A stretch of 64,000 bases of DNA. Source: Haloarcula sp. CBA1127 (lineage in GTDB: Archaea; Halobacteriota; Halobacteria; Halobacteriales; Haloarculaceae). The position numbers were made by a program, and so were the translations under genes. The notes below the pieces were generated by a model that searched no databases, had not been told where the DNA came from, and saw only the letters and a program-made list of their open reading frames with translations. Positions 41,412 to 58,009 of the stretch are shown piece by piece. The DNA lies in assembly GCF_001485575.1 (NCBI RefSeq), contig NZ_BCNB01000004.1, positions 62,001-126,000 on the forward strand. Reading direction: 5' to 3'. The stretch's first letter is position 1. Each line of letters begins with the position of its first letter.

Positions 41412-41427
41412 TTTAGGCCCGTCTAAA
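41412..41427. promoter_or_regulatory. DtxR-type metal-repressor box 1
   Basis: TTTAGGCCCGTCTAAA. The left half matches the other five boxes; the right half has one change. It lies 70 bases before the RraA-like gene and marks the left edge of the siderophore regulon. Confidence 0.6.
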
Positions 41428-41498: not shown

Positions 41499-42197
41499 GT
41501 GGATATCAGGGACAATGACAAGATGGTAATCGGTGATATCGATCGGCCAGCTGAGCAACAGCTGGAAACACTCAAACAGGTCGACCCAAACGAACTTGGC
41601 CATCACAATCATTTCGGGCATTCGTCACCAGAACTCAGCTTTATGCGGACTGCCCAGTCAGCACAGGTGGTTGGTTCGGCACTAACTGTACGGATTCCCC
41701 CCGTCGACGGGACGATGGTGCACAAGGCAATCGAGCTAGCGGGGCCAACAGATGTGATCATCATCGAGATGGGTGGCCACGAAACAAACGCCCCCTGGGG
41801 CGAGATTACAACCCACGCAGCCGTGGCGAACGGCGTTCGGGGAGTGGTTATCGACGGTTCAGTGACCGACACGAAGCCAATCACCGAGATCGGATTCCCG
41901 GTGTTTGCTCGCGGTCGGACCAACCGCACGGTCCAACGGCTGGGAGAAAGCTTGGGTGGGGATATCAACGTCCCAGTCCAAGTCGGGGGCGCAGTGGTGG
42001 AGCCGGGCGACGTCGCAATCGGCAACGAAGACGGGGTTGTGTTCGTCCCCCAAAATCGGATCGACCGAACTATCGAGCACTACACCGGAACCGACGAGGC
42101 GGAGTCCGCACTCATCGAGCGTCTTTATGATGGCGAGTCGCTCGCGGATATCTCGGGAGCGAACGACCGCATTGCCGATCTTGACGAGCAGGCGTGA
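41499..42197 (+). CDS. RraA-fold protein with altered aldolase motif
   Basis: A 232-residue protein of the RraA / HMG-aldolase fold: SAQVVGSALTVRIPPVDGTM, VIIIEMGGHETNAPWGEITT, GVRGVVIDGSVTDTKPITEI and PVQVGGAVVEPGDVAIGNED. Metal-dependent aldolases of this fold carry Arg-Asp in the DGxxRD position; here the sequence is DGSVTD, so the catalytic Arg is replaced by Thr while Asp stays. Start at GTG 41,499 or ATG 41,523. The iron box and position next to the synthetases suggest a role in making or modifying the carboxylic acid unit of the siderophore, but RNase-E-inhibitor-like or other roles are possible. Confidence 0.82.
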   Translation: MDIRDNDKMVIGDIDRPAEQQLETLKQVDPNELGHHNHFGHSSPELSFMRTAQSAQVVGSALTVRIPPVDGTMVHKAIELAGPTDVIIIEMGGHETNAPWGEITTHAAVANGVRGVVIDGSVTDTKPITEIGFPVFARGRTNRTVQRLGESLGGDINVPVQVGGAVVEPGDVAIGNEDGVVFVPQNRIDRTIEHYTGTDEAESALIERLYDGESLADISGANDRIADLDEQA

Positions 42198-42208: not shown

Positions 42209-44026
42209 TCAATCCCGTGATTCTGAGAGCCGAGTGACAAGTGGGTTCTCGACGCTGATGTAGACCGACTCCTCTTCGAGCGGTGCCGCCAGTTCATCGC
42301 GGCCCTCGAACCGCGTGCGGAGGTTACCCTTGGCAGGAATATGTGACTCTTCGAGCAGTGCAGTGGCAAAGCTGGATGCAGCTGGTTCGTGTTCGGCTAG
42401 GTCGGCGATTGCGGATCGCAGAGATTTGAGGAGTGTTGTCTCGTCGACGAGCCCTGCGACTCCGAGGGCGTTGATGACGCCGAACGCGTTGTTGATGACC
42501 GTGTAGTAACGGATACATTCGTCGGCGATACTGTCGGGACAGACCGTGTCGACACGGTCGGTGATGCCTGGGAGCCAGCCTTCGATCTCCTCGCAGCGTG
42601 ATTCGGGGAGGTAAAACCCCTCATTATCCCTATAAAACCCTTCGACCGGCCAGCCGTCAATATCGAGTCTGATGAGGGTGTTCTGCTGATGGGCCTCGAG
42701 ACCGACACCGAGTTCGAGGTACATCCAGATCACTGGTTTGAGTAGAACGGCCAGATACTCCCGGAACCACTCTCTAGCGATACCGCTGGTGGACCGGCCC
42801 GTTCTGTCGGCAATATCGCTCACTAGACGAGCGAGCCGTGATGGGCCATTGATCCCGTCCTGGCAAAGTGCGACGACTGGCGAGACGTTTGCTGCGGCCT
42901 CATCGCGGAACGGGTTCTCTCGAAGCACTGTCTCGAAGCCGGACTCAGGACCGTCACCGACATCGAGTGTCAGCGCTGCGGGATCCCGCAGGATAGAAAA
43001 CTGTGGGAAACGGTCGGTAATCCGGTCGCCGAACCCGGTATCCAGCAGCTCCGCCGCGGCTACCCCAAGCTTGAGTTCCGGAATCTTGCCCGTGCGCTCG
43101 GCATTCGTGATCTGGACCGCGAGCGAGGTTTTCACCATGAACGGAGCCTCGGGCGACCACAGCGTGCGAACCGAGGTGGTAGGATAAAACGTCGGCCCGA
43201 ACGCACCGAGATCGGTGAGTCGTCCCTCATCGAGTACCCCCTCAACGTGTGGCTGTGAAATGAGGTAGGAGGCTTGCCACGGATGGGTGGGGATCAGGAG
43301 ACGACCGTTGTCAACGGCGCGCTCAGCCCTGGCCGGAAGCTCCGTGGGGGCCTCGTCGAGTCCCAGCAGAAGCCAGTCGGTCGCGTGTCGCTCGTCGGTC
43401 GACCACTGGCTGACGAGATCCGGATCGGCGGCGAAATACCGGAGCTGGAACGATCCGTTGAGCTCCGGTGCGTAGGTGGGTGCCTCGTGATCGGCGATTC
43501 CCTCCCGACTCTTGGGTGTCGGATGAAGATGGTGGCCGTAGATCAGTGACTGTTCAGCCTCTTGGAACAGGATGGGCTCATCGGTCGCTCGGCAGGCATC
43601 GTCGCGCGCTGAGACGAAGCGCTCGATAGCCTGCCGTGAGGCGAACAGTCGACGGAGGAGGTCAGTACCCTCCGTCAGAGTGGTGGTGTCGGCCGATAGC
43701 GCGAGTTCCCGTCGACAGAGCGTAGCGACCGTTCCCGCATCAATCGGTTTCGGCTCGCCACCAGCGGCCCGGCCATAGGCGGGCAGCTCGAAGAGGTGTC
43801 GGCCGGTCGGTGACTCATAGCGGAGCGGGACGATCAGTTCGAACTGCTGTTGTGGCAGCAAAATACGGACCGCGTCGCCCTCGGAAGCTGCGTCCGAAAG
43901 TGCTTGCTTGGAGCCGACAATCTCACCGGCATCGGTTTCGCGGAGATAGCAGTTCAGAAACGCGTGCAGCGTTGCCGACTCGGCGCGGTCGGCTGCAGTC
44001 TCGCAGCCAGCGCTGACACCAGTCAT
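42209..44026 (-). CDS. IucA/IucC-family siderophore synthetase 1
   Basis: A 605-residue NIS synthetase. Conserved blocks are YGHHLHPTPKSREGI (usual GHPxHPxxKxRxG), IPTHPWQASYLIS, SVRTLWSPEAPFMVKTSLAV with NAERTG, and GVGLEAHQQNTLIRLD. It condenses a carboxylate such as citrate with an amine or alcohol using ATP. It is encoded after the decarboxylase and aminotransferase in one operon (each ATGA/GTGA overlap), so its amine is probably 1,3-diaminopropane or diaminobutyrate. The ferric-reductase-like C-terminal Cys motif is absent. ATG 44,026 overlaps the stop of the preceding gene. Confidence 0.93.
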   Translation of the reverse strand: MTGVSAGCETAADRAESATLHAFLNCYLRETDAGEIVGSKQALSDAASEGDAVRILLPQQQFELIVPLRYESPTGRHLFELPAYGRAAGGEPKPIDAGTVATLCRRELALSADTTTLTEGTDLLRRLFASRQAIERFVSARDDACRATDEPILFQEAEQSLIYGHHLHPTPKSREGIADHEAPTYAPELNGSFQLRYFAADPDLVSQWSTDERHATDWLLLGLDEAPTELPARAERAVDNGRLLIPTHPWQASYLISQPHVEGVLDEGRLTDLGAFGPTFYPTTSVRTLWSPEAPFMVKTSLAVQITNAERTGKIPELKLGVAAAELLDTGFGDRITDRFPQFSILRDPAALTLDVGDGPESGFETVLRENPFRDEAAANVSPVVALCQDGINGPSRLARLVSDIADRTGRSTSGIAREWFREYLAVLLKPVIWMYLELGVGLEAHQQNTLIRLDIDGWPVEGFYRDNEGFYLPESRCEEIEGWLPGITDRVDTVCPDSIADECIRYYTVINNAFGVINALGVAGLVDETTLLKSLRSAIADLAEHEPAASSFATALLEESHIPAKGNLRTRFEGRDELAAPLEEESVYISVENPLVTRLSESRD

Positions 44027-45624
44027 TGTTCCACCTCCGATCCACAAACAGGTGAAACATCGAGTTCACCGTCCGATTGGTCCGGCTGGCTGGCGGTGAC
44101 TTGGGCTTCGGCCTGGGCCGCATCCTCCTTCAGGGCGAGTAGCAGGTCATGTACATCGTCAGCCGTGGTACGTGGGTTCAGAAGGGTGAATTTCAGATGG
44201 ACGCGGCCGTCGACCTCGGTTCGAGCAACGACGCCCTCCCCCGAGAGAAGTAGCTGATCTCGCGCCCATCGATTTACCTGATCGGCCCATTTGCCAGGTG
44301 GTTTCGTTGGGTGGTCATGGTCCGGTGTATACCGGAACGTCACGATGTTGATCTCCGGAGGGCAGGCGAGTTCAAATGCCGGGTCTGAGCGAACGATATC
44401 AGCGGCTTGGTCGGCAAGCTCGATGGTCCGGTCGATCAGTTTCCCCATCCCCTTGCGGCCGAGCGTCCGAAACGCGACGTACGGTTTCAGTGCGTCGAAC
44501 CGTCGTGTCGTCTGCAGTGATTTTGAGACGAGGTTGGGAACCTGGTCGCCAGTTGGATTGAGGTAGGCAGCGTTTCGTCCCATGAGATCGAACCGACTCC
44601 CATCGGCCAGCAGGAAGGCCCCACAAGAAATCGGCTGATACAGCAGCTTGTGGAAGTCGACGGCCAATGAATCAGCGCGCTCAATACCGTCGAGGGCCTC
44701 AGCATGGCTGTCGCTCAGCGCGAGTGCCCCACCCACGGCCGCATCGACGTGAAACCAGAGCCCATGTTCGTTGGAGAGATCGGCAAGTGCCGGCAGCGGA
44801 TCGATACTCCCGAAGTCGGTCGTCCCGGCCATCCCGACCAGCGCGAACGGTCTGCAGTCGGTCTGCTCCAGGCGGTCGAGTTCGTCGGCGAGTGCGGTAG
44901 GGTCCATCCGATGTCTGTCGTCGGTTGGGATCGCGATCACGGCATCTTCGCCGAGTCCAAGCTGGGCGGCCGCCTGCGCAACAGTGAAATGGGCATCGGC
45001 CGAGGTCAGGATCCGGAGCTCGCTGGCTGCTGGTGGCAGCCCCGCCGCCCGTACCGAGTGATCGAACGCGTCGGCGGCGTACCACTCACGTGCGAGGAGC
45101 AGGCTCTGGAAATTCGACTGTGTTGCACCTGATGTCATCACACCATCAGCACTCTCTCCAAGATCAAACAACGAGGCGAGGTCATCGATCAACCGTTCTT
45201 CAAGCACCGTCGCAGCTGGGGCCTGATCGAACGAGTCCAGCGACTGGTTGAGCGCCGACAGCATCACCTCGGCGGCCAACCCTGGTACCATCGGCGGACA
45301 CTGGAGATGCGCGTTACAGGCCTTGTCAGTTGGGTATACAGATGCTTCGAGGAGATCGGTTGCGAGGTCGTCGATCACCTCCTTGAGTGGCTCGCCCGAC
45401 TCGGGGATTGTCTCGTGGTCGAGTCGGTCCTGGTGTGCCGCATACGTCCCTCCGGAGTAGGGACCCTCGGTCTCACTGACCGCCGAGATCACCGCGTCCC
45501 GACAGTGATCTATCGCCGCCGCGTAGGCGTCGTTCCCCTCCGGTGTCCCAAGGAACAGCCGTTCGCCGAGCGTGCGCCCATCGAGTTGCTCCCTTCCAAT
45601 CGCATCCGGATCGTGGGATCTCAC
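44023..45624 (-). CDS. bdb: L-2,4-diaminobutyrate decarboxylase-like PLP enzyme
   Basis: A 533-residue group II PLP-dependent decarboxylase. Motifs: GVMTSGATQSNFQSLLLARE, ALVGMAGTTDFGSIDPLPAL, LWFHVDAAVGGALALSD and the PLP lysine in LAVDFHKLLYQP. Family members in siderophore clusters turn diaminobutyrate into 1,3-diaminopropane. Gene order dat-bdb-iucA/C on one strand matches this role. The start is GTG 45,624, overlapping the stop of dat. An unusually long tail after the family end (QVTASQPDQSDGELDVSPV) is acidic. Confidence 0.92.
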   Translation of the reverse strand: MRSHDPDAIGREQLDGRTLGERLFLGTPEGNDAYAAAIDHCRDAVISAVSETEGPYSGGTYAAHQDRLDHETIPESGEPLKEVIDDLATDLLEASVYPTDKACNAHLQCPPMVPGLAAEVMLSALNQSLDSFDQAPAATVLEERLIDDLASLFDLGESADGVMTSGATQSNFQSLLLAREWYAADAFDHSVRAAGLPPAASELRILTSADAHFTVAQAAAQLGLGEDAVIAIPTDDRHRMDPTALADELDRLEQTDCRPFALVGMAGTTDFGSIDPLPALADLSNEHGLWFHVDAAVGGALALSDSHAEALDGIERADSLAVDFHKLLYQPISCGAFLLADGSRFDLMGRNAAYLNPTGDQVPNLVSKSLQTTRRFDALKPYVAFRTLGRKGMGKLIDRTIELADQAADIVRSDPAFELACPPEINIVTFRYTPDHDHPTKPPGKWADQVNRWARDQLLLSGEGVVARTEVDGRVHLKFTLLNPRTTADDVHDLLLALKEDAAQAEAQVTASQPDQSDGELDVSPVCGSEVEQ

Positions 45625-47018
45625 ACTGCCCCCCCATAGCTGTCGTCGACAACCGCCTCGACTGCCTCACTGAACCGACTAGCGATTTCGTCGACCTGAC
45701 TGTGGGAGAGTGTCAGCGGTGGCAGGAACCGCGCAACCGCTGAGTCACGGCCACCGGTCTCGATCACCAACCCCCGGTCGAAACACGCCGTTTGGACTGC
45801 CGATGCAAGCTCACCGTCAGGTGGTGGGAGTTCGCTGCTGGCCTCCGGGTCAATGAACTCGACGCCCAACATCAGCCCACGACCCCTCACGTCACCAACA
45901 ACCTCAAAGTTCGCAGCCATCTCGGTCAGCTGATCCTTTAGACGTTCGCCAACTACCGCAGCGTGTTCATCGAGATCATTTTCCATGATGTAATCAATCG
46001 TTGCCCGACCCGCCGCCATCGCGAGCTGGTGGCCACGGAAGGTGCCAGCATGAGCACCTGGCTCCCACTCGTCCAGAGACTCGTCATACATGACGACTGC
46101 TAGCGGAAGCCCACCGCCGATTGCTTTCGAACATGTGATTACATCCGGCACGATGTCGGCGTGTTCGAACGCCCACGTCTCGCCCGTCCGGCCCATCCCA
46201 GTCTGGATCTCGTCAACGATCATCGGAACACCGTGTTCCGCAGTGATCTGTCGAATCTCCTGTATCCACTCTATCGGGGCCGGGTTGACACCGCCCTCAC
46301 CCTGCACCAGTTCAAGAATCAGTCCGGCAGGGTCGGTGACACCACTCTCGGGGTCGGCAAGCACACGTTCGGCAAACCGGCTCACTGGTTCGTGATCAGC
46401 CGGGTCCAAACCGAACGGATGTCGGTATGGATCGGGATACGGGAGGTGGTGGACGTTCGACATCAGCCCTGGTACTGACTCCTTGGCCGCCGTATCTCCC
46501 ATCAGACTGAGTGCTCCGTTGGTCATTCCGTGATAACCGCCCTGAAAACCGAGCACGCTCCGGTTTCCCGTCGCGGTTTTGACGAGCTTGAGGGCTGCTT
46601 CGACCGCATCAGTGCCTGCTGGAGAGCAGAACTGGACCCTAGCGGTGTCGGTGAACTCGTCAGGTAAGCTCTCGAACAGCGTGTCCACGAACGCTTCCTT
46701 TTCGGGTGTCGTCACGTCGAGCGTGTGAAGCGGGCGGTCTTCAGCTAACAGCCGCTCGACTTCCCGCGTCACGGCTGGATGGTTATGTCCGAGTACGAGC
46801 GTGCCAGCTCCGGCAAGGCAGTCGATGTACGTCTCGCCGTCGGCATCGACGATTTCAGCACCCTGTGCCCGCTCGACGGCAAACGGTAACGACCGTGGAT
46901 AGGTCCGAGCATTAGACTCACGTGCCTTCTGACTCCGCTGCAACTGTTCGTTCGATTGGTTGTATCTCGGTGGAGAGTCGGCCGACGATGGTTGGCCATC
47001 TGATTTGTCTGTTTGCAT
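45621..47018 (-). CDS. dat: Diaminobutyrate-2-oxoglutarate aminotransferase
   Basis: A 465-residue class III aminotransferase. It shows IDCLAGAGTLVLGHNHPAVT, FQGGYHGMTNGALSLMG, LILELVQGEGGVNPAPIEWI, MIVDEIQTGMGRTGETWAFE and the PLP lysine in VITCSKAIGGGLPLAVV, as in enzymes making L-2,4-diaminobutyrate from aspartate semialdehyde and glutamate. It starts the minus-strand operon dat-bdb-synthetase 1. A metal box (47,027-47,042) lies 9 bases before the start. Confidence 0.93.
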   Translation of the reverse strand: MQTDKSDGQPSSADSPPRYNQSNEQLQRSQKARESNARTYPRSLPFAVERAQGAEIVDADGETYIDCLAGAGTLVLGHNHPAVTREVERLLAEDRPLHTLDVTTPEKEAFVDTLFESLPDEFTDTARVQFCSPAGTDAVEAALKLVKTATGNRSVLGFQGGYHGMTNGALSLMGDTAAKESVPGLMSNVHHLPYPDPYRHPFGLDPADHEPVSRFAERVLADPESGVTDPAGLILELVQGEGGVNPAPIEWIQEIRQITAEHGVPMIVDEIQTGMGRTGETWAFEHADIVPDVITCSKAIGGGLPLAVVMYDESLDEWEPGAHAGTFRGHQLAMAAGRATIDYIMENDLDEHAAVVGERLKDQLTEMAANFEVVGDVRGRGLMLGVEFIDPEASSELPPPDGELASAVQTACFDRGLVIETGGRDSAVARFLPPLTLSHSQVDEIASRFSEAVEAVVDDSYGGAV

Positions 47019-47026
47019 GATGTGTT

Positions 47027-47042
47027 TTTAGGTCAGCCTAAA
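47027..47042. promoter_or_regulatory. DtxR-type metal-repressor box 2
   Basis: TTTAGGTCAGCCTAAA, extended by A/T on both sides, directly before dat. The palindrome TTTAGGnnnnCCTAAA is the type bound by DtxR/IdeR/SirR-family repressors with Fe or Mn. Confidence 0.75.
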
Positions 47043-47131: not shown

Positions 47132-48469
47132 TCAGTAGACGCTCCGGAGCCGATCTCGTTGCCAAGAGTTGGCGCTTCGAGTAAAGGCCTCCCAGTGACT
47201 GCGTTTGACGCCGAGATACGTTTCGAAGAGGTCGGGACCGAGCGCGCGCTGTAGCGTCGTGTCGGCTTCGAGCGCGTCGAGTGCCTCACCAAGCGTCTGA
47301 GGGAGCCGGTCGATACCGCGGTCGGCCCGTTGGCCTTCTGAGAGGGATCCAGGGTCGACAGCAACCGGTTCCGGCGGTTCGAGGTCACGTTCGATCCCGT
47401 CACGTCCGGCTGCCAGCAGACCGAGCAGCCCGAGATAGGGATTGGCAGTGTTGTCGGCCGCCCGGAACTCGATTCGTGTCGAGCCCGCTGGGTTCTGTGG
47501 GTCTGGGGCCGGAATCCGAACGAGTGCCTCGCGGTTGCCTCGTCCCCAGCAGGCGAAGGCGGCCGCACCGTATTGCGGACGCAATCGTGCATACGAGTTG
47601 GCCGTCGGGGCAGCAAGTCCACAGAGTCCGGGCGCGTGTTCGAGCACGCCGGCGACGAACTGCCGACCGGTTCGGCTGAGCCCCTGTTGATCGGCGTCAT
47701 ACATCACGTTGTCGTCGTCCCACAGAGAGAGGTGAATGTGACAGCCAGCGGTCGCGTTATCGAACGGTTTTGGAACAAACGTCGACTGGTAACCCTGCTT
47801 GCGCGCAACGCTGTCGACTGTCTCCCGGAGCAGCACGTAGTCGTCGGCCGCCCGGAGTCCCGACCGGTGGCCGGTGACGATTTCGTGTTTCCCGGCAGCG
47901 TACTCCGGATAATACTTTTCGACCGAGATCTCTTGTGTCTTGAGCGCGTCAGTGATCGCTAGGATCGTCTCGTGAGTCTCTCGTGTGCTTGCCGTCGAGT
48001 AGGCACCCCGATGGCCGACACGCTGGCTCTCTCCATCTTGCTGTTCGAACAGGTGGAACTCGCTTTCGAACGCAACAGACGGAGCCAGCCCGGCGTCGGC
48101 GAACTCCGTTTGGAGTGCTCGCAATGAGGACCGTGCGTCGACGGCCCATGGCTCACCATCGAGTGTCTTGATATCGCATAGCATTGCCCCAGCCCGATCG
48201 GCGTACGGGAGCCGCCGAAACGTCTCTGGGTCGGGTTGAAGTATCACCTCACCCGCCGCGTCGAACCGTCCGTCCTTGTCGCGTCGACCGAACGCGTTGT
48301 ACGTCTGGACCAGCTCGGAGATTGTGACACCGGTTTCGACCGCCGAGTCGACTTTCTCAACATCGACTGCATGAGCCCTGACCGCCCCGCTTTGGGTAAC
48401 AAATAACAGGCGAATGAGATCGATCCCCTCGTTGGCACATATCTCGCTTACTCTGTTTGTAGACGTCAT
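47132..48469 (-). CDS. Glutamine-synthetase-like ligase of the siderophore cluster
   Basis: A 445-residue protein of the glutamine synthetase fold. Blocks: [17 protein letters not shown] (E-x-E metal ligands), [33 protein letters not shown] (usual GSGxHxHxSL), [25 protein letters not shown] and [20 protein letters not shown]. It lacks several features of true GS, for example the ammonia-site surroundings, and resembles gamma-glutamylamide ligases acting on amines. Own metal box at 48,491. In the cluster it may add glutamate to a diamine or to the siderophore. ATG 48,469 chosen; codons up to 48,487 are also open. Confidence 0.88.
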
Positions 48470-48490
48470 GTACACCTGCATCGACATTTA

Positions 48491-48506
48491 TTTAGGCCAA
48501 CCTAAA
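48491..48506. promoter_or_regulatory. DtxR-type metal-repressor box 3
   Basis: TTTAGGCCAACCTAAA, 21 bases before the start of the glutamine-synthetase-like gene (minus strand). Confidence 0.75.
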
Positions 48507-48577: not shown

Positions 48578-48593
48578 TTTAGGTAGGCCTAAA
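48578..48593. promoter_or_regulatory. DtxR-type metal-repressor box 4
   Basis: TTTAGGTAGGCCTAAA, before the second synthetase on the plus strand. Boxes 3 and 4 lie 71 bases apart in the divergent promoter region. Confidence 0.75.
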
Positions 48594-48596
48594 AGT

Positions 48597-48671
48597 ATGA
48601 CACCTCTAACAGTAGGAACCGATTGCGCTGGATCACACCGGTCCGTCGAACCGACCATGGAGGAACAGTAA
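48597..48671 (+). CDS. 24-codon leader ORF before synthetase 2
   Basis: ATG 48,597, right behind metal box 4, opens 24 codons (MTPLTVGTDCAGSHRSVEPT then MEEQ). Its stop overlaps the ATG of the synthetase (TAATG). If the transcript starts at the box, this leader would be the first ORF and could couple translation. No attenuator hairpin was noticed. Confidence 0.4.
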   Translation: MTPLTVGTDCAGSHRSVEPTMEEQ

Positions 48672-50524
48672 TGCAGAACCTCTCGCAACTTGAGTCGGCA
48701 CTTACCGACGAGATTTGGACAGCAGTCAACCAAGATCTGTTTCGGAAGGTCCTCGCGGAGTTCATGTATGAGGATATTGTACTACCAGTACCGATAAACA
48801 CGGTTCCGGCCGACAAGAACGAGCCCGGAGACTCCTGGACTCAGTACCACCTCGGGCTAACCGACGGCGTCGAATACCGGTTCTCGGCCCAGCAGCGACC
48901 CCTCGACAGCTATCGTATCCGTGAGGGGACGATTCGTCGACGAAACGGCAGCGGAGAGTGGCGTTCGGCGACCGACCCTATCCAGTTTTTACTCGACTCC
49001 CGAGAGTACATCGGTGTTGAACCAACGACTGCTGCCCACCTCGTCAGAGAGTATAACAACACGCTCATCGCCGACGCCCACATTCGGGCCCGGAAAAGCC
49101 AACACGACGCGGAGTCGATACTCGACCTTCCCTCTGCAGCGGTCGAAGGGGAGATGGAGGGCCACCCATGGTACACTTACAACAAGGGTCGGATCGGCTT
49201 CGGTTACGATGACTACCGTCAGTACGCTCCTGAGTCGAAACAGCGTCAGCACCTCTCGTGGATCGCGGTGAGCCGTGACCGGGGGATGTTTCAGGCCGTC
49301 GAGGGGCTTGAACACACTGAGCTGCTCAGCGACGAACTGGGCGATTCCTATGACCAGTTCTACGAACAGTTGGTCGACCGTGGACTCGATCCAGCCGACT
49401 ACTTCTTGATGCCGGTCCACGACTGGCAGTGGAACGACAGCATCGTCCAGCTGTTCGCCGAGGATATCGCCACCGATAACATCGTCCCACTGGGTGAGGG
49501 GCCCGATGAATACCTCCCCCAGCAGTCAATCCGGACGTTCTCGAACGTCACCGATCCTAAAAAGCGCCACGTGAAACTCCCTATTCGCGTACTCAACACT
49601 AACGTCTATCGGGGAATTTTGGGCGAGCAGGCCGAAGCCGCCCCGGCAATAACTGAGTTCATCAAGTCGACTCGGGACAACGACGCCTTCCTCCGGGACG
49701 ACTGCGAACTACTACTTCCGGGAGAGATCGCCAGCGTCAACTACGAACACCCGACGTTTTCACAGTTCGACGAGGCTCCCTACCAGTACCACGAACTGCT
49801 TGGCTGTGTCTGGCGGGAGAGCGTGGTATCGCTCATTGATGCCGACGAGCGCCCTCTTACGCTGGCTGCGCTCATCCACGAAGATCTCGATGGTACGCCG
49901 GTCGTCTCGCAGCTGGCAGATCAAGCTGGCCTCGACCTCGGAGCCTGGCTTGATGAGTTCCTTGGCACACTCCTCGACCCCTTGCTCCACTACCTCTACA
50001 AGTACGGCCTAGTGTTCATGCCCCATGGGACGAACGTTATCCTCATCCATGACGATGGATATCCGACACGGATTGCTGTCAAAGATTTCGTCGACGAGGT
50101 GGCCATCAGTGACCACGATTTCCCGGAGCTGACCGCTATGCTTCCGAACGACCTTCGAGACGACGACCGATACAAACACCATATTCTTCATCAGGCACGG
50201 CCGGAGTCACTCTGTCACCGAATCGTCGGTACGCTGTTTGTCGGTGTATTTCGGTATATGGCCGACCTGCTGGCTCGCCACCACAACTACTCCGAACAAC
50301 GGTTCTGGCAGCAGATCCGAGCGGCTATCGACGATTATCAGGCCCGGTTCCCCGAACTCAAAGCACGGTTCGAACTGTTCGATCTCTACCGACCTCGGTT
50401 CAAAAAGTACTGCCTCAACCGCAACCGCATGGTGAGACACGGCTATGAGGACAGTTCCACGCGTCCGGACGTAGCAACTCATGGAACGCTTTCCAACCCA
50501 CTCTCAGAAGTCGACCGACAGTAA
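48671..50524 (+). CDS. IucA/IucC-family siderophore synthetase 2 (type C-like)
   Basis: A 617-residue NIS synthetase. EGHPWYTYNKGRIGFGYDDY, LMPVHDWQW, HVKLPIRVLNTNVYRGILGE and YGLVFMPHGTNVILIHDDG place it near the DesD/AlcC (type C) group, which joins a second amine to a citryl monoamide or acts on succinylated amines. The usual Glu in the HGEN motif is Thr here (HGTN). The C-terminal part holds LCHRIVGTLFVGVFRYMADL and FKKYCLNRNRM. ATG 48,671 overlaps the leader stop. It opens the plus-strand half of the cluster. Confidence 0.93.
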   Translation: MQNLSQLESALTDEIWTAVNQDLFRKVLAEFMYEDIVLPVPINTVPADKNEPGDSWTQYHLGLTDGVEYRFSAQQRPLDSYRIREGTIRRRNGSGEWRSATDPIQFLLDSREYIGVEPTTAAHLVREYNNTLIADAHIRARKSQHDAESILDLPSAAVEGEMEGHPWYTYNKGRIGFGYDDYRQYAPESKQRQHLSWIAVSRDRGMFQAVEGLEHTELLSDELGDSYDQFYEQLVDRGLDPADYFLMPVHDWQWNDSIVQLFAEDIATDNIVPLGEGPDEYLPQQSIRTFSNVTDPKKRHVKLPIRVLNTNVYRGILGEQAEAAPAITEFIKSTRDNDAFLRDDCELLLPGEIASVNYEHPTFSQFDEAPYQYHELLGCVWRESVVSLIDADERPLTLAALIHEDLDGTPVVSQLADQAGLDLGAWLDEFLGTLLDPLLHYLYKYGLVFMPHGTNVILIHDDGYPTRIAVKDFVDEVAISDHDFPELTAMLPNDLRDDDRYKHHILHQARPESLCHRIVGTLFVGVFRYMADLLARHHNYSEQRFWQQIRAAIDDYQARFPELKARFELFDLYRPRFKKYCLNRNRMVRHGYEDSSTRPDVATHGTLSNPLSEVDRQ

Positions 50525-50689: not shown

Positions 50690-50705
50690 TTTAGGTTAGC
50701 CTAAA
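50690..50705. promoter_or_regulatory. DtxR-type metal-repressor box 5
   Basis: TTTAGGTTAGCCTAAA ends four bases before the start of the binding-protein gene, in the place of the promoter of a leaderless transcript. Confidence 0.75.
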
Positions 50706-50708
50706 AAT

Positions 50709-51899
50709 ATGGGATATAACAACCGATCAACACGCCGCCAGCTACTCGCGGGGACGGGCCTCGCGTTCGGTTCGGCACTGGCCGGCTGTGCGTCGATATC
50801 TGGATCAGACGACACGGATGACTCCAATGAGTCGACTACGACAGAACAGGCAGACAGCTACGAGGCCTGTATCGAGCCAGTAGGCTGTCAGACTTTCGAG
50901 TCGGTACCTGAGACCTACATCGTCAACAACGGCGAGTGGGCCGATATGGCCTTTGCACTGGGTAAACGCGATGGGTTCCTGACGTCGACTAACATGATAC
51001 CCGGATTCCTCTTCGAGCCGTTCGGGCTGGACGTACCGCCGCGCTCGGAGACAGAGTCGATGTCAGCGGTTAGCTGGGACAAGGAGATCTTCTACGAGCG
51101 CGAGCCCGATGTGATCTTGATGGACCCCAACTACATGCATGGCACCGGCTGGGACGACTCATGGGACGAGGCAGACACCCAGGAAATCAGCGAGAACGTT
51201 GCTCCCTTCTTCGGGAACAACATCCTGCGTCGACGAGATTTCCACGACTACAAACTCTACTCGCTGTACGAGGCCTTCGAGCGGCTTGCTGAGCTGTTCC
51301 AAGAACGCGAGCGCTACGAGGCAATGGTGTCTGTTCACGACGACCTTCAGAAGGAGATCCAATCGCGGCTCCCGTCGGATGGCGGCCAGCCGACGATTGG
51401 TCTTGTCAACAGTGCCACTAATCCGAGCGAAGGGACGTTTTATCCGATGAATACGGACGCGGACGGTATCGAAATGAAACCGTACCAGGATCTCGGCATC
51501 GAAAGCTCATTCACCCCTGAGCTGGTCGAGAGTGGAACCATTGACTACGAACAGCTGCTTGACGTCGATCCCGAGATCATCGTCGTCCACTGGGGAATCA
51601 AAACCACCGGCGACACTGATAGCTTCTCGTCGTCGGCGTTCCACAAGCAGTTCGTTGAGCCAATGGAGACCGATCCGGTCGGCAGCCAGCTGAAAGCGGT
51701 CGAGGAGGGCAACATCTATCCCGGTGCGTTCGGCTCGCAAGGCCCACTGGTGAACCTGCTCCAGACCGAGATGGTCGCCCAGCAGCTCTATCCCGAGGAG
51801 TTCGGCGAGTTCGAGCCCGAACGGTTCCCCGAGGTAGCCGACGACAAACAGCTGTTCGACCGCCAGCGGGTGAAAGACATCGTTCAGGGACGCTTCTAA
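50709..51899 (+). CDS. Tat-exported lipoprotein, siderophore-binding ABC component
   Basis: A 396-residue protein with twin-arginine signal and lipobox (TRRQLLAGTGLAFGSALAGC), then a type III periplasmic-binding fold: YIVNNGEWADMAFALGKRDG, EREPDVILMDPNYMHG, a long connecting helix (FERLAELFQERERYEAMVSV), and DYEQLLDVDPEIIVVHWG. It resembles iron-siderophore binding proteins (FepB/FecB group). No permease or importer ATPase follows, so these must be elsewhere. Metal box 5 controls it. Confidence 0.9.
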   Translation: MGYNNRSTRRQLLAGTGLAFGSALAGCASISGSDDTDDSNESTTTEQADSYEACIEPVGCQTFESVPETYIVNNGEWADMAFALGKRDGFLTSTNMIPGFLFEPFGLDVPPRSETESMSAVSWDKEIFYEREPDVILMDPNYMHGTGWDDSWDEADTQEISENVAPFFGNNILRRRDFHDYKLYSLYEAFERLAELFQERERYEAMVSVHDDLQKEIQSRLPSDGGQPTIGLVNSATNPSEGTFYPMNTDADGIEMKPYQDLGIESSFTPELVESGTIDYEQLLDVDPEIIVVHWGIKTTGDTDSFSSSAFHKQFVEPMETDPVGSQLKAVEEGNIYPGAFGSQGPLVNLLQTEMVAQQLYPEEFGEFEPERFPEVADDKQLFDRQRVKDIVQGRF

Positions 51900-52010
51900 C
51901 TGACGAATGCAGTCAACACGCCACGTAATTGGAAATAACGGCCCCAAACGACCGATCACTCTGCCAGTCTCTATAAATAACCGCTGTCTAAAACGTGGTT
52001 GGTTACAGCT

Positions 52011-53924
52011 GTGAGTTCAGATGAATTTGATTCCGGTACAGGTGAACTCGGAACACGCCAACAGGAGGTGACAAGCCCTCTTCTCCGGCTGTTTTTGAAC
52101 TACGGCCGTCCAGAAGCCAGTTGGCTTGGGGTGGGGTTGGTGGCCAGTCTCGGTGCCCACACCGCGACGCTGGTGACGCCGCTTATCCTCGGGACGACTA
52201 TCGACGCTGTCTTCACCGGAGAAAGTCCTTACCGACTCCCGCTGGTCCCAGCAGCGTGGCTACCTGTCGAACCGACCGCGCAGTTTTGGTTGTCGGTGGC
52301 GCTCATCGGCGCCTCACTCGGTGTCACGACCTCGCTGACCTGGGTCCGTGGTGTAGCAATGAACGTGTTCGCATACAAAGTGTTACACGAGATCCGGATT
52401 GATGCTTACGAACGGCTCCAGCGTTTGGATATGTCGTTTTTTGACGACACACAGACCGGCGAGGTAATGTCAGTCCTCAATAACGACACCTCGAATCTTG
52501 AACGGTTCCTCGACAACGCCCTGAGCCAGAGTGTCCGTATTCTCGCCATTGTTGTGGGAATCTCGGTCGTCTTGTTCCACACGAATGCACAACTCGCCGT
52601 TGTCACGTTAGTTGTCGTTCCATTCCTCGTCGGTTTTACGTGGTGGTTCATGCGCGTTGTCGAACCACGGTATGCAACCCTACGCTCGAAGATCGGGAAG
52701 CTGAACACGCAAATCGAAAACGGAATCAGTGGGATCGAACTCGTCAAAACAGCGAACACGGCTGCACGTGAAAACAGGCGGATGCAGGGTGTTTCACATG
52801 GATTGTTTGAGGCGAGAGTCGACGTCTCAAAGTTGGCGTTCCTCTACCGACCGGGGATGAAGCTGCTGACGGGGACCGCCCTGCTCGCAACGTTCATTAT
52901 CGGCGGTATCTGGGTCTTCTCAGGTCCACCCCCGGGATTCTCCGGCGAACTTAGCGTTGGCGAGTTTGTCGTGTTCATTCTGTTGGTCCAACAGCTCACC
53001 GCGCCGCTCGCACAGTTGTCGAACATCGTCGACTGGTACGAAAACGCTCGCGCCTCAGGCAAGCGAATCTGTGGTCTGTTCGATGTCCCGGTCCGCATCC
53101 ACGAGTCAACCGACCCTGTTTCGCTCAATACCGTCGATGGCCATGTCGAATACGATGACGTCAGCTTCGCATACGAAGCCGACGAGCAGATTCTCGACAG
53201 TATTAGTTTCACTGCTGAGCCGGGCGAGACGATAGCGCTGGTCGGTCCAACGGGAGCCGGTAAATCGACAGTCGCCAAGCTCCTGTTACGACTGTACGAT
53301 GCTGACGAGGGAACTGTCCGAATCGACGGCCACGATGTACAGAACGTCCGTCTTGGTGATCTCCGTGAGTCAGTCGGCTACGTAAGTCAGGGAACAGTGC
53401 TGTTCGATGGGACTGTGGCCGAAAATATCCGGTACGGACAGTTTGATGCGAGCGATGAGGCGGTCAGGGAAGCCGCCCGGGCTGCCGAGGCCCACACATT
53501 TATCCAGGCGCTTTCGTCCGGATACGACACCCGCGTCGGTGAGCAGGGCGTCAAACTCTCCGGAGGACAGCGTCAGCGGATTGCGCTGGCACGAGTTATC
53601 CTCCAGGACGCCGATATCATCCTGCTCGATGAGGCGACAGCCAGCGTCGATACCAAAACCGAGGCGCTGATACAGCGGTCACTTGATCGCGTCACTACCG
53701 ATCGGACCACTGTTGTTATCGCCCATCGACTGTCAACAATCAAGGATGCTGACACAATCCTCACACTCGATAACGGACGGATCGTCGAGTGTGGAAGCCA
53801 CGAAGAACTGCTGGCCGAGGACGGTCTCTATGCAAACCTCTGGGGTGTCCAGGCGGGCGAAACCGACTCGCTTCCCGATGCGTTCCTCAAACGGACGTCA
53901 AAACCATCTGTAAACAACAATTAA
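52011..53924 (+). CDS. ABC-type exporter, half transporter
   Basis: A 637-residue ABC exporter (membrane domain followed by ATPase). The membrane part has six hydrophobic segments (about residues 25-330). The ATPase shows Walker A GPTGAGKST, Q-loop, signature LSGGQRQR, Walker B IILLDEATASVD and H-loop VIAHRLST. In NIS clusters such a protein can release the siderophore. I chose GTG 52,011; TATAAATAA (51,972-51,980) lies 31-39 bases upstream. A TTG at 51,999 is the alternative. No clear metal box at this promoter, so it may rely on read-through from the binding-protein gene. Confidence 0.92.
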   Translation: MSSDEFDSGTGELGTRQQEVTSPLLRLFLNYGRPEASWLGVGLVASLGAHTATLVTPLILGTTIDAVFTGESPYRLPLVPAAWLPVEPTAQFWLSVALIGASLGVTTSLTWVRGVAMNVFAYKVLHEIRIDAYERLQRLDMSFFDDTQTGEVMSVLNNDTSNLERFLDNALSQSVRILAIVVGISVVLFHTNAQLAVVTLVVVPFLVGFTWWFMRVVEPRYATLRSKIGKLNTQIENGISGIELVKTANTAARENRRMQGVSHGLFEARVDVSKLAFLYRPGMKLLTGTALLATFIIGGIWVFSGPPPGFSGELSVGEFVVFILLVQQLTAPLAQLSNIVDWYENARASGKRICGLFDVPVRIHESTDPVSLNTVDGHVEYDDVSFAYEADEQILDSISFTAEPGETIALVGPTGAGKSTVAKLLLRLYDADEGTVRIDGHDVQNVRLGDLRESVGYVSQGTVLFDGTVAENIRYGQFDASDEAVREAARAAEAHTFIQALSSGYDTRVGEQGVKLSGGQRQRIALARVILQDADIILLDEATASVDTKTEALIQRSLDRVTTDRTTVVIAHRLSTIKDADTILTLDNGRIVECGSHEELLAEDGLYANLWGVQAGETDSLPDAFLKRTSKPSVNNN

Positions 53925-53972: not shown

Positions 53973-53988
53973 TTTAGGCCAGCCTAAA
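53973..53988. promoter_or_regulatory. DtxR-type metal-repressor box 6
   Basis: TTTAGGCCAGCCTAAA, ten bases before the start of synthetase 3. Confidence 0.75.
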
Positions 53989-53998
53989 ATAAAGCCGT

Positions 53999-56083
53999 AT
54001 GACACGACGGCTGTTATCCGATACAAACGGTGAGGATGATCTGCTCGACCACGCAGCACTGACAGAACACGAACGAAGTGGACTGCCTGCAGCCTACTAT
54101 TATGCCGACCAACACGACTTTGCAAGTCCCGCTGACAAAGGCTACCGCCGCCAACTGGTCAACGCTAGACGATCGATCCTCGAACGGTTGCTCGGTGGAT
54201 TGGCTCGGGATGCTCCAGCAGGAATTCCAGAGCCAGTGGTTGTCAGCATCGACGGGGCCACGAAAGCGGCGGTAGACACGGTTCCAGGGGCGGACGATGT
54301 AGCGACACTCGTAGAGCGCGTTCCCGATTCAGGAGAGGCCGAGCAATTGCTCGTGATCCGGTTTCCAGCTGTGACGGCTTCTGTCGTTGCCCCTGTTGTA
54401 ACAAGTGGGCCGTACGGTCGTTTTCGGTTTGGTAAGTGGGCTGTGATCTGTCGTCCCGACGAAGTCAATCCAGTTGGGAGTCCAGAAGCAGTCGTGAGAC
54501 TTCTCGAACGGGAAGAAGCGTTTCCAACGGCCGACGACGCCGACCGCTTCCGCTTGGAGGTGGGCAAGAGCGTTGCAAACCTCGCGTTGGCGCGTCTCGG
54601 TCAGCACACTCTCTGGAGCCATCTCGACCAAACGCCAGTACCGACAGCCGACCGACCACGTCCAGCCGCCGACACTGGTGCCTTTTTTGATCGGCTCGTG
54701 ACCGGTGGTCACCCGATCCATCCGGGTGCAAAGCTGCGGCGGAATATGTCGCCGACAGAGCTGTTGTCGTTCACGCCGGAGTTCACCGATTCAATCTCCC
54801 TCCGATTTGTTGCGGTCCACAGGACGCGCACGCTGTCGGTGTCGGCCGACGAGAGAGCGATCTCCGAGTGGCTCTATGACCTGTTTCCCGGGTTAGCATC
54901 GGCGGTTGAACAGTCACTCCCAGCCGGTCGTGACCGGAGTAACTACATCGTTCTCCCTGTTCACCCGTGGCAATTCAGACATGTGGTGCCGGCGCGCTAT
55001 GCCCAGGCGTGTCGAAAAGGTCACGTTGTCCCCATTGTAGACTATTCGCGGTCGGCAACACCATTGTTATCACTCCGGACAGTCGTTCCTGATGCCGACG
55101 AAACGTCACGCACCACGCCGCCACACCTCAAACTCGCCATCGGCGTCCAGACGACCAACGCCGTCCGCACGCTGTCGCCAAGCGTCGTTGCCAACGGGCC
55201 ACCGCTCGGAGAATTCATCAGACAGCGGTGTGAAATCGAATCCTTCGACCGCTTCGGGGTTTGTACCGAACCAGTTGCCGCCTGTTATCACCCACCTGAT
55301 GGCCCCCATTTTGACGGAGAGGGCTACGACGATGCCCGTCATCTTGGGGCACTTATTCGACGCCACCCTGCAACCCACTCAATCGTTGCTGACTGCGAAC
55401 AGGCAGTAACGGCTGCAAGTATCCTTTCGTGTCCTCCACCGGACGACCAGTCGGTTCTTGCTGCACTCCTCGATACCACTGCCACCAATATGATCACGGC
55501 GGATCGGTCTGAGACAGTAAAGACGTTCCTTGAGGCGTATCTCGACGCTGTTATTCCCGGGCCACTCACGCTTCTCGTCAAACAGGGTATTGCGCTAGAA
55601 GCCCACCTCCAGAATACGGCCATCGTATTCAACGACGGCCGACCCACAGGCGCACTGTGTAGTGATTTCGGTGACATCAGTCTCTGCACACCACGAGTCG
55701 GTGATATCGACTTTGACCTCTATCCCGAGTCGGAGATTTGTACAGCCGATCCACAACCAGCCCGTGAGAAGCTGTGGTACTCCCTCTTCCAGAACCATTT
55801 AGGTGAGTTGATCGGCCGACTTGTCGCGACAGAACCGGTCGAGGCAGACGACTGCTGGTCGCTGGTGAGAGAGCGCTGTGAGCAGGTGTTCGACCGCTTA
55901 GCTGCTGAACGATCGGTTCCAGATGCTCGCGTCTCGGCCGACCGCGAGTCGCTGTTTGCACCACGACTGGTGCATAAACCACTGACTGCCATGCGAATGG
56001 CTGGATCCAATGGCGGACAACCGCACACGACAGTCCCCAACCCACTGTCAGAGATGACACCCAAACAGACAACATTTCAGTAA
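53999..56083 (+). CDS. IucA/IucC-family siderophore synthetase 3
   Basis: A 694-residue NIS synthetase, longer than the other two. Motifs: TGGHPIHPGAKLRRNMSPTE (standard GHPxHPxxKxRxG), IVLPVHPWQFRHVVPARYAQ, HLKLAIGVQTTNAVRTLSPS and LVKQGIALEAHLQNTAIVFN. An N-terminal extension of about 200 residues precedes the core. With box 6 it has its own iron-controlled promoter. It could attach the third building block (for example alpha-ketoglutarate or a second citrate). Confidence 0.93.
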   Translation: MTRRLLSDTNGEDDLLDHAALTEHERSGLPAAYYYADQHDFASPADKGYRRQLVNARRSILERLLGGLARDAPAGIPEPVVVSIDGATKAAVDTVPGADDVATLVERVPDSGEAEQLLVIRFPAVTASVVAPVVTSGPYGRFRFGKWAVICRPDEVNPVGSPEAVVRLLEREEAFPTADDADRFRLEVGKSVANLALARLGQHTLWSHLDQTPVPTADRPRPAADTGAFFDRLVTGGHPIHPGAKLRRNMSPTELLSFTPEFTDSISLRFVAVHRTRTLSVSADERAISEWLYDLFPGLASAVEQSLPAGRDRSNYIVLPVHPWQFRHVVPARYAQACRKGHVVPIVDYSRSATPLLSLRTVVPDADETSRTTPPHLKLAIGVQTTNAVRTLSPSVVANGPPLGEFIRQRCEIESFDRFGVCTEPVAACYHPPDGPHFDGEGYDDARHLGALIRRHPATHSIVADCEQAVTAASILSCPPPDDQSVLAALLDTTATNMITADRSETVKTFLEAYLDAVIPGPLTLLVKQGIALEAHLQNTAIVFNDGRPTGALCSDFGDISLCTPRVGDIDFDLYPESEICTADPQPAREKLWYSLFQNHLGELIGRLVATEPVEADDCWSLVRERCEQVFDRLAAERSVPDARVSADRESLFAPRLVHKPLTAMRMAGSNGGQPHTTVPNPLSEMTPKQTTFQ

Positions 56084-57156: not shown

Positions 57157-58008
57157 ATGCTGGCATTGCCAGCCTTGAGTATGATATCCGCAGTTCTCGT
57201 ACAGTTGAGTGAGATTAGCATCACAAATGGCTACGGCCTGGTAGTGTTTTTCTTGATTGGTCTCTTCGGGGGTGCACACTGTCTTGGAATGTGTGGCCCG
57301 CTCGTTGCAACCTATGCCGAGCGTATGGAAACTCAGGACCGGTGGTCGAGCGCACTCACTCTGTATGAAGTGCGTCAGCACACGCTGTTCAACATTGGCC
57401 GGACGATGAGCTATGCTACCATCGGATGCGTCTTCGGGGCTGCCGGCGCGTTACTGTACGGAACCATCGGGCTCGCCGGATTTCTCCGGCCAGCTCAGGG
57501 TGTCGTCGGTATCTGTATCGGCGTAGCAATTATCATTATGGGACTCACCCGGTTAGCTGGCTACAAACAAGGAGCCGTTGAAGGAGTTGTTGCCGGTACT
57601 GGTATCGGCTCACTATTCGCGCGAACCTACGCAGTCATTTCAACACGGGTCGACCGCTGGGTCAACGGTATCGGCATTATCGGCCTCGGTGCGCTTCATG
57701 GATTGTTGCCGTGTATGCTTCTTTATCCGGCATTCCTGTACGCGTTTGCTCAGGGCTCACCTGTATATGGCCTCCTCTCGCTCGGTGCGCTCGGGGCAGG
57801 GACGGTCCCCAGTGTGTTTCTCTACGGAACAGTTATCCAATCAGTGAGCACGCGCCAGCGACAGGTAGTCCATTACGGACTCGGTGTGTTGTTTGTTGGG
57901 CTTGGATACATACTGGTAGCAATGGGACTCATGCGGTTTGGCGTCATGCTCCCATTACCAGATATCCCGTACTATCAGCCGATCTCCGAATCGGGGGCGG
58001 TTGCGTAA
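57157..58008 (+). CDS. SafE/TauE-like (UreH-type) membrane protein
   Basis: A 283-residue protein with six to seven hydrophobic segments. FFLIGLFGGAHCLGMCGPLV and GLGALHGLLPCMLLYPAFLY each hold the conserved Gly-His-Cys or His-Pro-Cys motifs of the CcoS/SafE-like family often found next to CcoI copper ATPases. It ends one base before the start of the ATPase gene, so the two are an operon. A part in copper handling or heme-copper oxidase assembly is inferred from this linkage. Confidence 0.87.
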   Translation: MLALPALSMISAVLVQLSEISITNGYGLVVFFLIGLFGGAHCLGMCGPLVATYAERMETQDRWSSALTLYEVRQHTLFNIGRTMSYATIGCVFGAAGALLYGTIGLAGFLRPAQGVVGICIGVAIIIMGLTRLAGYKQGAVEGVVAGTGIGSLFARTYAVISTRVDRWVNGIGIIGLGALHGLLPCMLLYPAFLYAFAQGSPVYGLLSLGALGAGTVPSVFLYGTVIQSVSTRQRQVVHYGLGVLFVGLGYILVAMGLMRFGVMLPLPDIPYYQPISESGAVA

Positions 58009-58009
58009 C

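Follow-up and report, generated by a model that had tools for sequence, protein, structure and literature searches.

What does a glutamine synthetase (GS)-like enzyme do inside a siderophore cluster of the NIS type? The question is raised by a 64,000-nucleotide stretch of Haloarcula sp. CBA1127 (G000:C4:62001-126000; hereafter the window, meaning the whole stretch that was analysed), in which an earlier note had placed a GS-fold gene at 47132-48469. We found the gene there, with its strand (minus) as the sole addition, and its nearest named relatives were in Haloarcula species. The longest open reading frame spans 47132-48487 on the minus strand (451 amino acids). A 5' end at 48469, which gives a protein of 445 amino acids, is the likelier start since it agrees with the starts of orthologues. 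The true GlnA of this organism is encoded elsewhere (G000:C6) and is distinct from the GS-like gene. The locus contains the following features:

41499..42197, plus strand, RraA-like (aldolase-fold) protein, candidate pathway member, with a one-mismatch box at 41412-41427
42209..44047, minus strand, NIS synthetase A (NIS_A), IucA-like, with a GLEAHQQN motif
44023..45624, minus strand, PLP decarboxylase (Pyridoxal_deC), diaminobutyrate decarboxylase-like, which would yield 1,3-diaminopropane
45621..47018, minus strand, diaminobutyrate--2-oxoglutarate transaminase (Dat; 673.6 bits against NF005393, with a cut-off of 671)
47027..47042, perfect metal box before dat
47132..48469, minus strand, GS-like gene for a probable gamma-glutamyl amine ligase of the haloarchaeal GlnA-2 ('glnA2') clade, assigned by NF045547, active-site residues and tree
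48491..48506, metal box TTTAGGCCAACCTAAA, a perfect palindrome just before the GS-like gene
48578..48593, another perfect box between the two divergent genes, serving NIS_B
48623..50524, plus strand, NIS synthetase B (NIS_B), IucC/DesD-like, with the signature NTNVYRGILGEQA ... FMPHGTN, co-evolving partner of the GS-like gene
50690..50705, perfect metal box before the binding-protein gene
50709..51899, plus strand, iron-siderophore substrate-binding protein (Peripla_BP_2)
51999..53924, plus strand, ABC exporter in which membrane and ATPase domains are fused, a candidate for siderophore export
53973..53988, perfect metal box before NIS_C
53999..56083, plus strand, NIS synthetase C (NIS_C), whose best NCBIfam match was FslA (rhizoferrin synthetase), under its cut-off

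As had been described, the GS-like gene has its own metal box, a perfect copy at 48491-48506, and lies between a minus-strand half of the cluster (NIS_A, decarboxylase, transaminase) and a plus-strand half (NIS_B, binding protein, ABC exporter, NIS_C). The coordinates given for NIS_B are those of the longest reading frame, and an ATG at 48671 may be its true start. The decarboxylase scored 407.9 bits against the RhbB model, under the cut-off of 900. Genes for RraA were found near the loci of 8/22 GS-bearing genomes versus none of the 40 sampled GS-less NIS loci, and in Haloprofundus (L083) such a gene begins 3 bases after a GS2 gene; in the window RraA-like protein, Thr occupies the position that is usually Arg in the DGxxRD motif. 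Two further genes adjoin the cluster without belonging to the box-bearing set, one for a membrane protein (57157-58008) and the other for a heavy-metal P-type ATPase (57938-60463).

Alignment to E. coli GlnA indicated that metal ligands (E129/E131/E212/E220/H269/E357) and the arginines of the glutamate and ATP sites (R321/R339/R344/R355/R359) are conserved in the window protein; both FESEF and HIHLSL, which the earlier note had listed as kept metal-binding motifs, were present. In the same alignment the ammonia site was gone (D50 to S, Y179 to A, E327 to G), and the adenylylation Tyr was also replaced (Y397 to G). The organism's own GlnA retains D, Y and E at the ammonia site together with the adenylylation Tyr. 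The window protein scored 716.7 bits against NF045547, the NCBIfam model for gamma-glutamylputrescine synthetase (cut-off 650), and 275 bits against the GlnA model TIGR00653, under its cut-off of 429. NF045547 is a broad model: examined with the proteins of L055, L063, L065, L066 and L078, it accepted haloarchaeal proteins of three separate clades (GS1, GS2 and a Trp-327 clade), including non-siderophore homologues, and E. coli PuuA was not listed by it at the threshold used. Names taken from this model are therefore too specific. Phylogenetic analysis placed the window protein in GS1, together with the GS1 protein of locus L055 (discussed below), on one side of a branch with SH-aLRT 92, separate from the sister group GS2 (glnA-3-like) and from the non-siderophore haloarchaeal clade with Trp at 327; there was no grouping with housekeeping GlnA. 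An AlphaFold model had the GS fold (pTM 0.86, pLDDT 79) with archaeal GSI as the best structure matches, and its low-confidence loops (55-69, 153-161 and 296-302) contain or border the altered ammonia-site positions, the model confirming only the fold. The ammonia-site residues, the GlnA model score and the tree rule out a housekeeping GS and bear out the suspected difference from true glutamine synthetase. The protein is likely to have gamma-glutamyl amine ligase chemistry.

The TTTAGGNNNNCCTAAA palindrome occurs in five perfect copies in the cluster, one each ahead of dat, NIS_B, NIS_C and the genes for the GS-like enzyme and the binding protein, and matches with no more than 2 mismatches numbered 7 in the window versus 0.63 expected. 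The association extends to the whole GS1 group, as a perfect TTAGGNNNNCCTAA box was present 20-40 bases before the start of 17/17 intact GS1 genes (the window counted), and before none of the 14 homologues outside NIS clusters. A DtxR/SirR-type metal repressor would act on the promoter-proximal box to control expression of the GS-like gene; regulators of this family, the presumed binders of the box, have been described in haloarchaea (PMC11349517, PMC11218638).

We analyzed the occurrence of the enzyme in 293 genomes of the order, with a homologue threshold of at least 52% identity. GS1/GS2 homologues were found in 21 genomes, all 21 of which had NIS synthetases, compared with 88/293 overall (hypergeometric p 1.7e-12, uncorrected for kinship and, like the correlations below, descriptive since the compared genomes are related). 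These homologues were located in or beside NIS clusters of Haloarcula, Halocatena, Halorussus, Halostella, Halostagnicola, Haloprofundus and Haloferax. The gene is thus kept in the NIS clusters of several genera, and neither of the outcomes that the earlier note had named as contrary to its reading, a grouping with housekeeping GlnA or absence from related clusters, was found. The GS-like enzyme was missing from 67 of the 88 sampled haloarchaeal genomes with NIS genes, and so marks a sub-type. One exception to the linkage was the L055-type locus, for which the iuc operon is on a separate contig (L126). Homologues with identity of 51% or lower (L065-L077) had no NIS genes nearby; among these, L068 falls into GS2 in the tree and adjoins an IucB-like acetyltransferase gene. 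Around the non-siderophore homologues L066, L069 and L074 no clear amine-catabolic context was seen, and bacterial homologues (L038-L044) had no NIS genes within the sampled stretches.

Additional arrangements were observed in these loci. L064 (G097) is decayed, with a degenerate GS1 (E129 to D, no box) that overlaps a partial NIS gene on the opposite strand. L120 and L121 (G134, G276) had 1 or 2 NIS_C-type (rhizoferrin-synthetase-like) genes, without Dat, decarboxylase, NIS_A or NIS_B, and perhaps encode stand-alone carboxylate siderophores. Genes for a polysaccharide deacetylase (NodB-type) and a MATE transporter recurred near haloarchaeal siderophore genes (L055, L059, L060, L103 and L119). 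In two loci (L081:11544-17149 and L068:8667-10673), a GS2-type ligase followed an IucB-like acetyltransferase, and in Haloferax larsenii such an acetyltransferase/GS2 pair was flanked by genes for an amidase and an HpcH/HpaI aldolase; these pairs are possibly a siderophore variant or a recycling set.

To see which cluster genes the GS-like gene accompanies, we set GS-bearing clusters against 40 NIS loci without GS, 38 of which had the standard Dat-decarboxylase-IucA-IucB-IucD-IucC set and two only NIS_C-type genes. Pairwise distances (descriptive, as above) correlated strongly between GS and NIS_B (r=0.91) and less so between GS and NIS_A (0.40), DAT (0.48) or DDC (0.57); Dat and decarboxylase formed a second module (0.91). 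GS1 presence could be mapped on the NIS_B gene tree with 2 changes, compared with 8 for NIS_A and 9 for DAT. Several genomes (G118, G124, G181, G292 and G293) combined a window-type NIS_B and GS with ordinary NIS_A, Dat and decarboxylase, and the converse combination was seen in G064 and G158. In G292 and G293, NIS_B, GS and an MFS exporter made up a unit separate from a DAT-DDC-IucA-IucB-IucD operon that lacked IucC. The two kinds of NIS_B also differ in sequence: NTNVYRGILGEQA and FMPHGTN were present in NIS_B of 15/15 members of the main GS1 group, whereas 35 of the 38 GS-less genomes had NTLV[WY]RGLPG[ED]RT and FSPHG[QE]N. Comparison with AcsD (R305, E442 and H444; PMC3323832) would place these signature motifs at the substrate site. 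The counter-examples G103, G239 and G284, which had an FMPHGTN-type NIS_B without GS, fall in a sister branch of the NIS_B tree.

Eight GS-bearing clusters had neither IucB nor IucD and the remaining ones had both. An IucD-family protein was missing genome-wide in 7 of the 8 (G000 and six others), and G150 contained an IucB/IucD pair unlinked to its GS cluster. In the whole genome G000, no member of the IucD family (PF13434) was detected, and the search for an IucB-type acetyltransferase (PF13523) gave just weak, unlinked GNAT matches. With IucD absent, the arm-building pathway proposed below would give the window cluster a siderophore of a carboxylate or aminocarboxylate type. Because many GS clusters also have IucB and IucD (both were found in more than 10 GS-bearing genomes), GS does not track hydroxamate chemistry, and the idea that it replaces IucB/IucD everywhere was rejected. 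The clusters of G125, G131 and G177 had Dat and no decarboxylase within the sampled stretch, so diaminobutyrate may be their amine.

A characterized relative is available in Haloferax mediterranei. Its GlnA-2 (HFX_1688 / E6P09_11460) has glutamate-putrescine ligase activity but no GS activity and behaves as a dodecamer in gel filtration, and deletion of glnA-2 affected growth on putrescine, which its authors read as catabolism (PMC8394153). The residues in Table 2 of that study (S51, E74, E135, E137, A157, E190, E197, G240, T241, H245, N247, G302, R314, R319, E335, R337 and C375; PMC8394153) are those of the L055 GS1 protein after removal of its 50-residue N-terminal extension; V53/V56 and R295/R296 differ by alignment register only. 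The gene order at L055 (MATE-GS1-SBP-GS2) also corresponds to the published one, in which a MATE gene is followed by glnA-2, a gene for an ABC transporter and glnA-3. As both the residue fingerprint and the gene order agree, we take L055 to be the H. mediterranei glnA-2 locus or one very close to it. The window protein is 62% identical to L055 GS1, both being members of GS1, and GlnA-2 is replaced at D50, Y179 and E327 like the window protein. They differ at N264 and H271, which are G and N in the H. mediterranei relative and A and H in the window protein, and the siderophore operon on contig L126, unlike the window cluster, includes IucB and IucD.

Published expression data of H. mediterranei agree with a link to the siderophore genes. 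In an RNA-seq comparison of oxic and denitrifying growth, log2 changes were -4.05 for glnA2, -5.37 for glnA3 and -4.25 for the intervening 'putative iron transport' binding-protein gene; the siderophore operon was repressed alongside them (-6.0 to -7.1 log2), and the authors considered repression of glnA2/glnA3 unclear and not caused by ammonium (PMC11218638). We found a box at -35 of L055 GS1 and more boxes before the binding protein/GS2 pair, the RraA gene and the deacetylase gene. In our reading of the published data, an iron box would explain the repression of glnA2/glnA3 alongside the siderophore operon.

These observations point, with a reasonable degree of probability, to a gamma-glutamyl amine ligase of the GlnA-2 clade that makes the gamma-glutamyl-diamine arm of a citrate-based NIS siderophore, with NIS_B handling that arm. 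In the pathway that we infer, including which amine is used, how the steps follow one another and the presence of a gamma-glutamyl unit in the final siderophore, the ligase would activate the gamma-carboxylate of glutamate as gamma-glutamyl phosphate by GS chemistry and pass the gamma-glutamyl group to an organic amine rather than ammonia. The amine in the window cluster would most likely be 1,3-diaminopropane, made from aspartate semialdehyde via Dat and the decarboxylase, and diaminobutyrate in clusters that have Dat without the decarboxylase. Gamma-glutamyl-diamine might be made free, or the glutamyl unit added once the amine sits on citrate, and the co-inherited NIS_B would join the arm to citrate. 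In the window genome, which has no IucD, gamma-glutamyl arms and the carboxylate chemistry of NIS_A and NIS_C would replace hydroxamates, and clusters that also have IucB and IucD may produce a mixed siderophore with one hydroxamate and one gamma-glutamyl arm. The broader proposal of a new archaeal class of NIS siderophores, consisting of citrate with gamma-glutamyl-diaminopropane arms as aminocarboxylate ligands and built by a swappable module of a GS-derived ligase and a dedicated NIS synthetase whose active site is altered, is more tentative, and we give it slightly less than an even chance. Two uses of the enzyme had been suggested in the earlier note. A gamma-glutamyl bond to the diamine is the best chemistry, as the fingerprint-matched H. 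mediterranei relative is a glutamate-putrescine ligase (PMC8394153), and its part in a siderophore building block keeps the status of a presumed role; nothing was found in favour of joining the amine to a side carboxylate.

It is also conceivable, although unlikely, that the enzyme serves diamine homeostasis and has no part in the siderophore, with surplus 1,3-diaminopropane, or diamine released from the imported siderophore, being glutamylated for Puu-like disposal. PuuA/PauA-type enzymes begin such routes, the glnA-2 deletion strain grows worse on putrescine (PMC8394153), and an amidase and an HpcH aldolase are found near one GS2 locus. Simple disposal of this kind is weakened by the observation that GS tracks NIS_B and not DAT/DDC, and 38 sampled genomes with GS-less clusters are predicted to produce the same diamine without the ligase. 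Moreover, the window cluster has no Puu oxidase or dehydrogenase gene, its neighbours being NIS, Dat, decarboxylase and transport genes; matches to PF07722, used to search for PuuD in the same genome, occurred in every control genome as well.

The tie to NIS_B could also be accounted for by a transient protecting group, whereby one amine is glutamylated so that NIS_B couples the other and the glutamyl is later removed and absent from the product. Gamma-glutamyl protection is known in other pathways, such as that of butirosin. We give this model little chance, as no gamma-glutamyl hydrolase or cyclotransferase was consistently linked to the GS-like gene in the loci compared, and ordinary NIS pathways couple diamines unprotected.

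Similarly improbable is that another siderophore amide is formed, from a different amine (e.g., N-hydroxy-N-acetyl-diaminopropane or an amino acid) or from a citrate-derived acid. The altered ammonia-site loop and flap suggest a pocket that may admit larger nucleophiles, and putrescine was the only amine tried on the H. mediterranei relative (PMC8394153); however, the glutamate-site residues R321, R359 and H269 are kept, which argues for glutamate as the acid, and that fingerprint-matched relative acts on a simple diamine. Finally, an ordinary, misplaced GS paralogue with no siderophore role would fit the GS fold and catalytic metal residues, but is very hard to reconcile with the lost ammonia site, the clade-wide linkage, the box and the co-regulated relative.

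If the ligase does supply a gamma-glutamyl-diamine arm, a GS-fold enzyme would be a class new to NIS siderophore assembly within the literature searched, and a new siderophore structure would be predicted in archaea. To our knowledge, few archaeal siderophore structures have been described. It would also provide a likely physiological role for the published H. mediterranei GlnA-2 and account for its unclear expression pattern; because a glnA-2 deletion strain exists, the idea is directly testable. There is a consequence for annotation too, since these genes carry the name gamma-glutamylputrescine synthetase and would be taken for polyamine catabolism. New beyond the earlier note are the tie of the enzyme to NIS_B instead of the diamine genes, the existence of a published relative and of published co-regulation, and the absence of the enzyme from most sampled NIS-bearing haloarchaeal genomes (67 of 88), by which it marks a sub-type. 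Our search of the open-access literature returned no report of a GS-like enzyme in NIS siderophores, nor of its conserved place in NIS clusters, its iron box or its coupling to NIS_B.

The enzyme family itself is already known, and databases name such proteins gamma-glutamylputrescine synthetase. E. coli PuuA shares with the window protein the GS fold, replacement of D50 and E327 and an organic amine acceptor. However, it is only 27% identical, has a Tyr at 327 where the window protein has Gly, and is encoded among the catabolic genes puuD, puuR and puuC, whereas the window gene is located in a siderophore cluster. GoaS enzymes NpaA1 and AtdA1 (PMC11335346) and gamma-glutamylmethylamide synthetase (PDB 9qur, 27% identity to the window protein) are also GS-like proteins that have lost ammonia-site residues and glutamylate organic amines, but their roles are catabolic and involve aromatic or methyl amines, unlike the role proposed here. 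On the siderophore side, the closest comparison is with the schizokinen-type iuc operon of H. volcanii (HVO_B0041-B0046, PMC7407949), which, like the window cluster, has Dat and a decarboxylase leading to diaminopropane, two NIS synthetases and iron control. The six genes described for that operon include those for IucB and IucD but none for a GS (PMC7407949); the window cluster differs in having GS and a third synthetase, in a genome without IucD.
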